NCBI GenBank assembly: GCA_902595755.1
Contig: CACJRF010000005.1
Location: 30,961 to 94,960 of the forward strand
DNA length: 64,000 nucleotides
Origin: an uncultured Alphaproteobacteria bacterium
Lineage (GTDB): Bacteria > Pseudomonadota > Alphaproteobacteria > Methylaequorales > Methylaequoraceae
Reading direction: 5' to 3'
This document shows positions 7,552-46,646 of this stretch, piece after piece (position 1 is the stretch's first letter; each line of letters begins with the position of its first letter). A model generated the notes under the pieces. It searched no databases. It worked only from the letters and a program-made list of their open reading frames with translations, and was not told where the DNA came from. The position numbers and the translations under genes are program-made.

Positions 7552-8163
7552 TTAGAACTTTCGGATTAACCCAACTAATTTACCTTGGATTCTTACTCTT
7601 CCTTCACCAAAGATTCTAGTTTTGAAGTTCTTATTAGAAGGTTCAAGAGCAATTGAATTTTTAAATGATCTAAACTTTTTTAAAGTAACTTCATTTTCAT
7701 CTATCAATGCCACAACAATATCACCTGTAATAGCAGTATTAGTTTTTTTTATTACAACAATATCTCCATCAAATATTCCATCATCAATCATCGAGTCTCC
7801 ACATACTTCCAATGTAAAATGGTGATTCTTATTACTTACAAGATAATTTGGTACAGATATTTGCTCAAAACTATTTGTAATAGCCTCAATTGGATTGCCT
7901 GCTGCTATTCTTCCAAGAAATGGAAGAGATGTTTCGTCATTTTCTATTTTATTTTCAAAATTATTAATTGTTAGAGCTCTTGCCTTATGAGGCAACCTTT
8001 TGATATATTTTTTTTCTTCTAAACTCTTTAGTAATTTATGAATTCCAGACTTAGACTTAATATTGAGTTTATATCTCATTTCATCAAAGGTTGGGAATAC
8101 CATTTTTTCTGAATAGTAGGATTTTAGATAATCAAGTAAATCTTTTTGTTTTACAGTTAACAT
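7552..8163 (-). CDS. lexA: LexA repressor (SOS regulator); start corrected to internal Met at 8163
   Basis: HTH N-terminus MLTVKQKDLLDYL, A-G cleavage site RIAAGNPIEA, GDSMIDDGI serine and LKKFR lysine; the track start at 8199 would place the LexA box inside the CDS. Confidence 0.93.
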   Translation of the reverse strand: MLTVKQKDLLDYLKSYYSEKMVFPTFDEMRYKLNIKSKSGIHKLLKSLEEKKYIKRLPHKARALTINNFENKIENDETSLPFLGRIAAGNPIEAITNSFEQISVPNYLVSNKNHHFTLEVCGDSMIDDGIFDGDIVVIKKTNTAITGDIVVALIDENEVTLKKFRSFKNSIALEPSNKNFKTRIFGEGRVRIQGKLVGLIRKF

Positions 8164-8171
8164 ATTCAAAT

Positions 8172-8199
8172 GTTCTACATAAGTTCTACACTTTGTCAA
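8172..8199 (-). promoter_or_regulatory. lexA promoter: TTGACA -35 (8199-8194) and LexA box overlapping TAGAAC -10; plus-strand box GTTCTACATAAGTTC (8172-8186)
   Basis: Exact GTTC-N7-GTTC between the moeA stop (8201) and the corrected lexA ATG (8163). Confidence 0.82.
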
Positions 8200-42321: not shown

Positions 42322-43332
42322 ATGAAATTAAAAAATGCTAACTGGTTGATTAAGAAAAAAGAAGGACTTTATTGTATCCCTGGAGATTTTTATATTGACC
42401 CTTTGTATCCAGTTGAAAAAGCTTTAATAACTCATGCTCATACAGATCATGCTAGGCCAAACAATCATTTCATATTGGGTACAAAGGAAACAATTGAAAT
42501 AATGAAAATAAGATATGCAAAAAGCTATTGTAATAATTACCAGGTAGTTAATTATAATAGTCCATTAACAATTAATAATATTGTAATTACGTTCATACCA
42601 GCAGGTCATATTCTTGGTAGCTCACAAATTTTAATTGAATATAATGGATATAAATTTTTAATTTCTGGTGATTATAAACGAGTAGAAGACAAAACATGTA
42701 AGGGTTATCAAAATAAAAAATGTGATACATTCGTTACAGAAGCTACATTTGGTTTGCCTATTTTTTCACATCCATCTGATAAAGATGAAATAAAGAAATT
42801 ATTAGAATCAGTTAATAAAAATAGACAAAAACCACATTTAATTGGTGTTTACGCACTTGGAAAGTGTCAAAGAATCTTATCGCTTTTAAGAGATGCTGGA
42901 TATGACGACACTATTTATCTTCATGGTGCGCTTGTAAAAATTACAGATTATTATATTTCACAAGGTATAGATATAGGAAAAGTAAAAAATACAAGTGATT
43001 TGAACCTCTCAGAATTAAAAAACCAAATTATCTTATGTCCTCCTTCAGCAATTCATGATAAATGGTCAAGAAAATTTAAAAATCCAATTAAAGGTATTGT
43101 TTCAGGCTGGATGAATATAAGGCAAAGAATTAAACAGAAAAATATACAGCTGCCCTTAATTATTTCTGATCACGCAGATTGGAATGATATTCTACTAACT
43201 ACAAAAGAAAACAATCCAGATAAAGTTCTTGTCACGCATGGAAGAGAAGAAGCTTTGGTTTTTCAATTAAATAAACTAGGTTTTGAAGCAAAAGCTCTAA
43301 ACTTATTGGGATATGAAGATGAGTATGAATAA
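42322..43332 (+). CDS. Ligase-associated DNA exonuclease (metallo-beta-lactamase fold)
   Basis: THAHTDHARP, PAGHILGSSQI, SGDYKR, ISDHADW motifs, followed by ligase. Confidence 0.92.
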   Translation: MKLKNANWLIKKKEGLYCIPGDFYIDPLYPVEKALITHAHTDHARPNNHFILGTKETIEIMKIRYAKSYCNNYQVVNYNSPLTINNIVITFIPAGHILGSSQILIEYNGYKFLISGDYKRVEDKTCKGYQNKKCDTFVTEATFGLPIFSHPSDKDEIKKLLESVNKNRQKPHLIGVYALGKCQRILSLLRDAGYDDTIYLHGALVKITDYYISQGIDIGKVKNTSDLNLSELKNQIILCPPSAIHDKWSRKFKNPIKGIVSGWMNIRQRIKQKNIQLPLIISDHADWNDILLTTKENNPDKVLVTHGREEALVFQLNKLGFEAKALNLLGYEDEYE

Positions 43333-44896
43333 TCTTTCAATACTACTGGATAAATTACTACTAAATTCTTCAAAAAAAATAAAAATTAGATTATTAAATG
43401 AATATTTTGAGCAAGCTAATTCTAATGATAGAGGCTGGACATTATCAATAATAACTAATTCAATAAAAAAAAAGAATATACATTTAAATGATTTAAAAAA
43501 TTTAATTAAGAATAAAATACCATCAGAATTATTTGAGTTATCTTATGATTATGTCGGAGATATTGCCGAGACAATATCATTATTATGGCCAAAAAATAAG
43601 TCTCCTAATTTGAACTTGAAACTATCTGATTTTATGAATAATATTTTTTTTATTGATGATAAAAAAACAGTACTTGAAAAACTTGAAAATATTTTTAATT
43701 CATCAACATCATCTCAGATTTATACAATAATTAAAATTATTACTGGTGGGTTGAGAGTAGGGGTTTCAAATGGTTTAGTTCGCGAATCCTTAGTAGCTTT
43801 TGGTAATAGAAGCTCTATTGAAATAGAAGAGGTGTGGCACGGTTTTACCTATCCTTTTTTTGATTTTTTTGAATGGTTGCTCGGAGCAAGTTTACCTAAA
43901 GGTTTGAAAAAAGAAGATTTATTTCATTCATTTATGTTAGCTAAATCAATAGATAATAAGATTTTTTTAGAGGATCCACGTGATTTTGTAGCTGAGTATA
44001 AATGGGATGGTATTAGAGCTCAGATGATCGTTTCTTCAAAATTTAAATTATTTTCTAGAAATAGTGAAGATATTACTGACTCCTTTCCTGATTTAAAATT
44101 TAATTCAAATGATAATTATATTATCGATGGAGAATTAGTCATAAAAAAAGAAAATGAAATACTTCCATTTAATATTTTACAAAAAAGAATTAGAAGAAAA
44201 AAAATTACCAATAAGATTTTAAATGAACTTCCAGCTCATTTTATTGCTTACGATATTCTTTATTTCAAAGGAAAAAAATGTACAAACATGAATCTTAATA
44301 AAAGAAAAGATTTACTTAGCAAATTTATATCTAAAATTAATAAAGATAATATCACCTTTTCTCCATCAATTAACTTTTCAAAATGGAAAGAACTTGAATT
44401 TTTGATGGCTTCTACACTTAATAATCATATTGAGGGTTTAATGATAAAAAGAATAGTTACAAAGTATGAAAAAGGTAGAGTTGCTAATAGTTGGTTTAAA
44501 TGGAAAAAAGAACCATATACAATTGATTTTGTTCTTATGTATGCGCAGAGGGGGCATGGAAAAAGATCATCTTTCTACTCTGACTTTACATTTGGATGTT
44601 GGGTTGATAATGCTTTTGATAAGTTAGTCCCTATCGGTAAGGCTTACTCTGGTTTTAGTAATGAAGAATTAAATCAACTTGATAAATGGGTCAGAAATAA
44701 TACGCTCGAACGTTTTGGACCAGTTAGATCCTTGAAATCAACATTAGTTGTTGAAATCTCATTTGACAATATTAATCACTCAGATAGACATAAATCTGGA
44801 GTAGCACTTAGATTTCCTCGATTTAGCAGAATACGTTGGGATAAGCCTGTTAACGAGGTTTGTATACTAAAAGATATAAAGAGTCTTATAAATTAG
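43313..44896 (+). CDS. ATP-dependent DNA ligase (LigD-independent, bacterial ligase-associated set)
   Basis: EYKWDGIRAQ nucleotidyltransferase motif, IDGELVI, EGLMIKR, WFKWKKE. Confidence 0.94.
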   Translation: MKMSMNNLSILLDKLLLNSSKKIKIRLLNEYFEQANSNDRGWTLSIITNSIKKKNIHLNDLKNLIKNKIPSELFELSYDYVGDIAETISLLWPKNKSPNLNLKLSDFMNNIFFIDDKKTVLEKLENIFNSSTSSQIYTIIKIITGGLRVGVSNGLVRESLVAFGNRSSIEIEEVWHGFTYPFFDFFEWLLGASLPKGLKKEDLFHSFMLAKSIDNKIFLEDPRDFVAEYKWDGIRAQMIVSSKFKLFSRNSEDITDSFPDLKFNSNDNYIIDGELVIKKENEILPFNILQKRIRRKKITNKILNELPAHFIAYDILYFKGKKCTNMNLNKRKDLLSKFISKINKDNITFSPSINFSKWKELEFLMASTLNNHIEGLMIKRIVTKYEKGRVANSWFKWKKEPYTIDFVLMYAQRGHGKRSSFYSDFTFGCWVDNAFDKLVPIGKAYSGFSNEELNQLDKWVRNNTLERFGPVRSLKSTLVVEISFDNINHSDRHKSGVALRFPRFSRIRWDKPVNEVCILKDIKSLIN

Positions 44897-44897
44897 C

Positions 44898-44925
44898 TTG
44901 AAAGTTCTACATTTGTTCTTATAAT
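44898..44925 (+). promoter_or_regulatory. SOS promoter of umuDC: TTGAAA -35 / TATAAT -10 with LexA box GTTCTACATTTGTTC (44904-44918) in the spacer
   Basis: Exact GTTC-N7-GTTC; 16-nt spacer between hexamers. Confidence 0.82.
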
Positions 44926-44931
44926 CAAATA

Positions 44932-45324
44932 ATGATTAATAATGAAAATATTCTAACTGTTGCAGCTGGTTTTCCTTCTCCTGCAGAAAATTATATAGAG
45001 GAGAAGTTAAATTTAGATAAACATTTAATAAAAAATAAGGAATCTACTTTTTTTGTTAGAGTTTCTGGTGACTCAATGATAAATGTTGGAATATTTGATA
45101 ATGATATATTAGTTGTTGATAGATCGCTTGTTCCAGTTAGACAGTCAATTGTAATCGCCTCGATTGACGGTGAACTCGTAGTAAAAAAACTAGTAAAAGA
45201 TAAAATAAAAAAAGATTTTTATTTAAAATCAGAAAATAAAAACTATCCAGATATACGGTTAAACTCTAATTCAGATACAATAATTTGGGGAATAGTTACT
45301 TATACTATACATAGTTTAGTCTAA
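44932..45324 (+). CDS. umuD: UmuD-like self-cleaving polymerase V accessory protein
   Basis: AAGFPSPAENYIEEKLNL (A-G cleavage site), SGDSMINVGI serine, ELVVKKLV lysine; followed by umuC. Confidence 0.93.
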   Translation: MINNENILTVAAGFPSPAENYIEEKLNLDKHLIKNKESTFFVRVSGDSMINVGIFDNDILVVDRSLVPVRQSIVIASIDGELVVKKLVKDKIKKDFYLKSENKNYPDIRLNSNSDTIIWGIVTYTIHSLV

Positions 45325-45329
45325 GAATT

Positions 45330-46646
45330 ATGATTGCTCTTCTTGATTGTAATAACTTCTATGTATCTTGTGAAAGGTTGTTTTCTCCAAAGTTAAAAAA
45401 TAAACCTGTTGTGGTTTTATCAAATAACGATGGTTGTGTTATATCCAGGTCTAATGAAGCAAAAGAATTAGGTATCACTATGGGTGAACCGTTCTTTAAG
45501 ATAAAAAAAATTACTAAAAACCTTCAAATAGAAGTGCTGTCTTCAAATTACTCACTCTATGCAGATATATCGGATAGAATTATGAGTATATTAAAAAAAA
45601 AATTTTTAGAGGTTGAGGTTTATTCAATTGATGAAGCCTTTTTTTACTTAAATAATAAAAGTAAAAATGAAATTATTTGTTCAGAAATAGCAAAAAAAAT
45701 ACTAAAATGGGTTGGTATTCCTGTTAGTATTGGAATTGCAAAGACTAAGACTCTTGCAAAAATATCTAATAGAGTTATTAAAAAAAAAAGTAACTATAAA
45801 AACATTAAATTTAAATACTCTAATGTTTTAGAGATAAAGTCTGATGAAGATTTAGATTATGTTTTAAAAAATACAAAAGTAGCTGATGTTTGGGGAGTAG
45901 GTAATAGGTTATCAAATTTTCTTGTTAATAATAATATTAAGAGTGCTCTTAACCTGAGAGATTCAAACGAAGACTTTATAAAAAAAGAAAAAGGAATTCT
46001 TATTAAAAAAACTATTTACGAGCTTCGTAATATTAAATGTTACCAAATAGAAAAAGAACTTCCTGTAAAAAAATCTATTTGTGTTTCACGTTCGTTTGGA
46101 AGTAAAATTTATGATTATGAACATATTAATAGGGCTTTGATAGTATATGTTCATAAAGCGGTTATAAAACTTATAAAAAATAATTTGTTTTGTAGATCAA
46201 TAACAGTTTTTTTGAAAACCTCAAGATATGATGAAAAGATTTATAGTAATTCAAAAACTTACAAATTACTTGAAGCAACATGTGACATAAGACTAATTTG
46301 GAAAATATCAAAAGATATATTAAAATTTTTATATGTAAAGGCCTTTGCTTATAATAAGGTAGGTATAATATTATCTAATTTTTCTCAAAGAAAAGAAATT
46401 CAACAATCTTTAATTGGAGATAAATTAAAAAATACAACTGTAAAGAATGAAATAAAACTAATGAATGTTATTGAAAAGATAAACAAAAAGTTTGGAGAAG
46501 GTAAAATAAGGTTATTAGCTAATTCTGATCACCGATTTTTTTATACTGATGAAGAGCCAAGAGTAAGTTGGCAAATGAAATCTGCCTTTCGTTCTGCTTG
46601 CTATACTACAAATTGGTATGATATACCAAAAGTTAAAGTAAAATAG
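45330..46646 (+). CDS. umuC: Y-family DNA polymerase V catalytic subunit UmuC
   Basis: LLDCNNFYVSCERLF, VVLSNNDGCVISRSNEAK, YSIDEAFFYL motifs. Confidence 0.95.
   Translation: MIALLDCNNFYVSCERLFSPKLKNKPVVVLSNNDGCVISRSNEAKELGITMGEPFFKIKKITKNLQIEVLSSNYSLYADISDRIMSILKKKFLEVEVYSIDEAFFYLNNKSKNEIICSEIAKKILKWVGIPVSIGIAKTKTLAKISNRVIKKKSNYKNIKFKYSNVLEIKSDEDLDYVLKNTKVADVWGVGNRLSNFLVNNNIKSALNLRDSNEDFIKKEKGILIKKTIYELRNIKCYQIEKELPVKKSICVSRSFGSKIYDYEHINRALIVYVHKAVIKLIKNNLFCRSITVFLKTSRYDEKIYSNSKTYKLLEATCDIRLIWKISKDILKFLYVKAFAYNKVGIILSNFSQRKEIQQSLIGDKLKNTTVKNEIKLMNVIEKINKKFGEGKIRLLANSDHRFFYTDEEPRVSWQMKSAFRSACYTTNWYDIPKVKVK

Follow-up and report, generated by a model that had tools for sequence, protein, structure and literature searches.

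Predicted leaderless lexA and umuD messages from LexA-boxed promoters in a family of uncultured marine Alphaproteobacteria

Promoters and start codons of umuD and lexA

The window (the whole 64,000-nt stretch of DNA analysed here) carries umuDC on its plus strand and lexA on its minus strand. The umuD gene (44932..45324) encodes a 130-aa Peptidase_S24 protein (Pfam PF00717, E 2.4e-29) with an Ala-Gly cleavage motif (A12-G13, in AAGFPSP), and is followed after 5 nt by umuC (45330..46646, plus strand), an IMS family Y-family polymerase with the Pfam domains IMS, IMS_C and DUF4113; the S24 domain, the cleavage motif and the adjoining umuC together identify the product as UmuD. The arm ahead of the cleavage Ala-Gly is only 12 residues long in the window (44932-45324), and its length in the family ranges from ~11 to 20, varying with the start codon used. 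A gene for an ATP-dependent DNA ligase (43313-44896) lies on the same strand, 35 nt upstream of umuDC. The lexA gene (7552..8163) encodes 203 aa with a LexA DNA-binding domain (PF01726, E 2.6e-12) and a Peptidase_S24 domain (PF00717, E 1.6e-29), and the gene upstream of it on the same strand is moeA.

The umuD promoter, on the plus strand, reads TTGAAA-N16-TATAAT, with the -35 element at 44898..44903 and the -10 element at 44920..44925, and its 16-nt spacer is occupied by a perfect GTTC-N7-GTTC LexA box, GTTCTACATTTGTTC (44904..44918). Six nucleotides separate TATAAT from the start codon ATG (44932..44934), so a predicted transcription start site (TSS) 7 nt past the -10 would fall on the A of the ATG. 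The umuD frame is closed upstream by a TGA (44899-44901), with no ATG, GTG or TTG from there to 44932; because no other in-frame start occurs until ~48 codons into the gene, within the S24 domain, 44932 is the only usual start. Sequence inspection found no AGGA, GGAG or GAGG before this ATG.

The lexA promoter reads TTGACA-N16-TAGAAC on the minus strand, with the -35 element at 8194..8199 and the -10 element at 8172..8177. The latter matches TATAAT at only four of six positions, and it is at the same time the second half of a perfect LexA box, GAACTTATGTAGAAC (8172..8186), so that operator and promoter core coincide. The ATG (8161..8163) would then follow a predicted leader of 2 nt, and no Shine-Dalgarno (SD) sequence was seen upstream of it on inspection. 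Both layouts had been proposed in an earlier note, which placed the umuD TATAAT and ATG, the upstream stop and the lack of an intervening start or SD where we find them, and which gave lexA a -10 ending at 8172, an ATG at 8163 and a predicted leader of about 0-3 nt; the coordinates were all borne out. The perfect boxes in both promoters, absent from that note, fix the two predicted promoters. A GTTC-N7-GTTC box in promoter position and a LexA with both DNA-binding and S24 domains are as found in alphaproteobacterial LexA regulons.

Conservation of the promoters and loss of the lexA leader

The lexA locus was compared in 26 genomes from 12 genera of the window's family and in 12 other alphaproteobacterial families. 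TTGAC-N16/17-TAGAAC is kept across the family and in other families: both elements are present in all 26 family genomes, with a spacer of 17 nt in 24 of them and of 16 nt in the two genomes of the window's genus. The LexA N-terminus aligned from residue 1 in all 26, starting with ATG in 25 and with GTG in G002. In 22 of the 26 genomes, representing nine of the 12 genera, 6-8 nt separate the -10 from the start codon, which gives predicted leaders of 0-2 nt. The remaining four (G005, G006, G010 and G017, from three genera) have gaps of 17-22 nt and leaders of 11-16 nt, with AGG or AGGA in the leader of three of them. The 12 other families share this -10 and box, preceded by TTGAC at a distance of 17 or 18 nt, but in them leaders of 38-89 nt follow; in ten of these families the leader has an SD-like motif. 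In a further family with small genomes (G053) the promoter is TTGAAT-N17-TATAAT, its box is a variant one and the gap is 7 nt. Because the same lexA promoter precedes 38-89 nt leaders in 12 other families, the leader appears to have been lost in this lineage, and the promoter itself is probably ancestral. Under the simplest reading of this loss, a few genera would carry lexA in a short led state.

Much of the family retains the umuD promoter, TTGAAAGTTCTACNTTTGTTCTTATAAT: TTGAAA and TATAAT are found in most of its members, and the LexA box in all 18 umuD loci compared. Of 19 family loci, 15 have an in-frame start 5-7 nt past the -10; this distance is 6-7 nt, with no nearby alternative start, for the window's genus and for members of genera g4, g7 and g10. 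The gaps are 9 nt in G009, where the start codon is GTG, and 11 nt in G012, and the geometry of G002 does not fit a leaderless layout. Most genomes of genus g8 have an in-frame ATG at a gap of 5 nt and also a GTG at a gap of 20 nt behind AGGA, and starting at this GTG gives a 12-residue arm before the cleavage Gly, the same as from the window's ATG, against 17 residues from the g8 ATG. The g8 sequence past TATAAT (L101, L102-L108; ATGAGGAA...GTG) allows two readings, a leaderless ATG and an SD-led GTG, and a dual start in this genus is possible. A TAG closes the frame of the ATG in G024, which must therefore start at the GTG behind the AGGA leader. Predicted leaderless umuD messages are therefore found in several genera, not uniformly. 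At both genes the boxes, the promoter elements and the spacing are conserved in the family, and the lexA leader seen in other families is missing.

The -10/start spacing genome-wide and the other SOS genes

A different TSS would undo the leaderless prediction: transcription could begin from another -10, or at least 10 nt from the assigned one, with the short spacing arising by chance in A+T-rich sequence. In the window, bare TATAAT within 4-9 nt of an ATG was counted 11 times, where shuffles lead one to expect 16.6. A count at or below chance agrees with a chance origin, and the bare pattern was dropped as evidence. It is the -35 element, the LexA box and the conservation that raise the predicted leaderless layout above chance. 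The conservation of the lexA spacing in nine of 12 genera and the genome-wide distribution described below, with a peak at 5-8 nt flanked by dips, speak against chance, and we consider a TSS elsewhere quite unlikely.

The genome-wide count that the earlier note had proposed as a check, of short spacings between -10 and start, was run on 863 kb with 867 called genes, scanning upstream of the 385 genes with an upstream gap of at least 25 nt. Promoter-like sites were defined by TTG and at least 4/6 of the -35, a spacer of 16-18 nt and at least 5/6 of the -10, a rule that leaves lexA outside the count since its -10 fails it. With gene starts called by simple rules, such sites numbered 0 at gaps of 0-4 nt (1.2 expected), 8 at 5-8 nt (1.27 expected), 2 at 9-14 nt (1.35 expected), 12 at 15-24 nt (2.5 expected) and 9 at 25-34 nt (2.2 expected; 21 against 4.7 for 15-34 nt combined). 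The Poisson probability of the excess at 5-8 nt is ~6e-5, and ~4e-4 when umuD is set aside (7 against 1.27). Operon-internal genes of the same genome showed no excess of promoter sites at 5-8 nt. A second family genome (G015, 400 kb) gave 3 sites against 0.3 at 5-8 nt; when the -10 rule was relaxed, the figures were 8 against 1.23. Leaderless genes thus appear to be a general minority class in this genome, perhaps a quarter of the recognisable promoters.

SD use is low in the same genome. AGGA, GGAG or GAGG precedes 58 of the 385 genes with a gap of at least 25 nt (22 expected) and 72 of the 402 operon-internal genes (40 expected), and the 16S tail is a normal CCTCC. Because only ~15-18% of genes have an SD-like motif, a missing SD is weak evidence for a leaderless message. 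The same figures imply that SD-less internal initiation must be common, which lends something to another possibility, namely that most LexA and UmuD is made from led transcripts reading through from moeA and the ATP-dependent ligase gene, by A/T-rich SD-less initiation, while each gene's own promoter has a short leader or none. Same-strand genes do end ~35-38 nt before lexA and before umuD, and read-through from them could yield led transcripts. If read-through dominated, however, a dedicated LexA-boxed promoter with fixed spacing, conserved at both genes, would serve no purpose in SOS control, and this makes a predominance of led transcripts unlikely. The 5′ ends of lexA and umuD showed no special structure, both being weakly folded, like shuffles.

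GTTC-N7-GTTC has 19 exact matches genome-wide; inspection showed that only those at umuD, lexA and recA occupy promoter position directly ahead of a start codon, and that one more, the fourth, is in a long non-coding stretch. A search for one-mismatch boxes as extra regulon members gave 27 matches (4 exact), the rest mostly intragenic; because the reversed-pattern control was higher, at 57, no further regulon genes are claimed. The fourth, orphan box, GTTCTACTATTGTTC, opens a ~200-nt block (L003:1501-1700, G000 C2:112480 on; L246:1503-1700). A counterpart with 90% identity occurs in another genus (G015), and a search of other relatives gave no match over the full length of the block. The block contained no open reading frame, tRNA or Rfam match; an RNA gene was considered and rejected, as the block belongs to no Rfam family and folds no better than shuffles. 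It is possibly a mobile or SOS-linked element.

At recA (L005; relatives L160-L186) only 3-4 nt separate the end of a conserved box, GAACATTWATAGAAC, from the ATG in most genomes, which places the operator in a short leader and not in the promoter core. We had considered recA as a third leaderless SOS gene and rejected it: conserved TTG and TGnTA upstream of the box indicate a leader of ~14 nt or more. On this likelier reading recA probably has a leader, and the SOS genes are then not uniformly leaderless.

This bears on the wider proposal of the earlier note, that leaderless translation of SOS genes may matter under stress; in its strongest form, the layout would have been selected as a means of making SOS proteins while stress alters initiation factors or ribosomes. 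That two of the three genes with a promoter-position LexA box share the layout is in keeping with such selection. Against it, recA is probably led, unrelated genes share the geometry, and lexA and umuD themselves have leaders in some relatives; in Caulobacter, leaderless mRNAs are reported to match led ones in translation (PMC4117421), which makes a special stress role unnecessary, and the MazF model of stress ribosomes has been contested (PMC9031893). Selection of this kind is highly improbable, and nothing points to an SOS-specific mode of translation. Of the earlier proposal, the leaderless prediction has gained from promoter anatomy, conservation and the genome-wide peak at the same spacing, and the stress role has found no support.

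A leaderless reading and its relation to known systems

The reading we prefer, with a probability of roughly 0.77, is that LexA-boxed sigma-70-type promoters yield leaderless lexA and umuD mRNAs, and that the leader was lost in a streamlined lineage while the promoter stayed. LexA would bind the GTTC-N7-GTTC box lying across the promoter and so block both genes; upon RecA-stimulated cleavage of LexA, RNA polymerase would start at the AUG, or within ~2 nt of it, and ribosomes would probably engage the 5′-terminal AUG. The exact TSS, repression by LexA and leaderless initiation are what we infer from these sequences. Leader loss may fit genome streamlining, since the ~35-38 nt of intergenic space would just hold a promoter. 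A further-reaching version, in which a streamlined marine lineage removed the leader from the autoregulated lexA, and in part from umuD, on an ancestral promoter and thereby tied SOS output to the state of ribosomes and initiation factors, is very doubtful.

Leaderless mRNAs as a class, and leaderless lexA, are already known; what these loci add is an evolutionary contrast between led and predicted leaderless lexA. Sister groups share one promoter, with the same LexA box and nearly equal spacing, and differ in whether a leader follows it, so that it becomes testable whether losing an SD leader is costly or beneficial. The counts also point to leaderless genes being common in this family, whose members are uncultured marine bacteria with very small genomes. 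In the literature searched, with most subscription journals outside its scope, no report was found of leaderless umuD or of leaderless genes in this lineage.

In Mycobacterium tuberculosis, tagging and frameshift mutants placed the translation start of lexA at its transcription start (PMC2897130). The start codon at the TSS, here only predicted, is common to both cases; promoter and lineage differ, M. tuberculosis being an Actinobacterium. Closer relatives, within the same bacterial class, are Caulobacter and Sinorhizobium, in which 375 (PMC4117421) and 171 (PMC3616915) leaderless mRNAs have been reported, likewise with the AUG at the 5′ end and no SD; lexA is unmentioned in the main texts of both studies, and in the other alphaproteobacterial families sampled here it is led by 38-89 nt, unlike in the window's family. 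70S ribosomes are able to bind leaderless AUGs, a step on which initiation-factor levels have an influence (PMC9031893). The close approach of the -10 to the start codon recalls the TA-led genes of Zheng et al. 2011, in which TAnnnT ~12 bp before the start codon was read as a leaderless signal, and which that survey detected in only two of 117 alphaproteobacterial genomes (PMC3160421); a -10 at about this distance from the start is accepted as a computational sign of leaderless genes. With the alphaproteobacterial LexA regulon, whose operator is GTTC-N7-GTTC as cited in PMC8565304, the genome shares the direct repeat at lexA, umuD and recA; it differs in that the predicted lexA leader is cut to 0-2 nt in most of the window's family.
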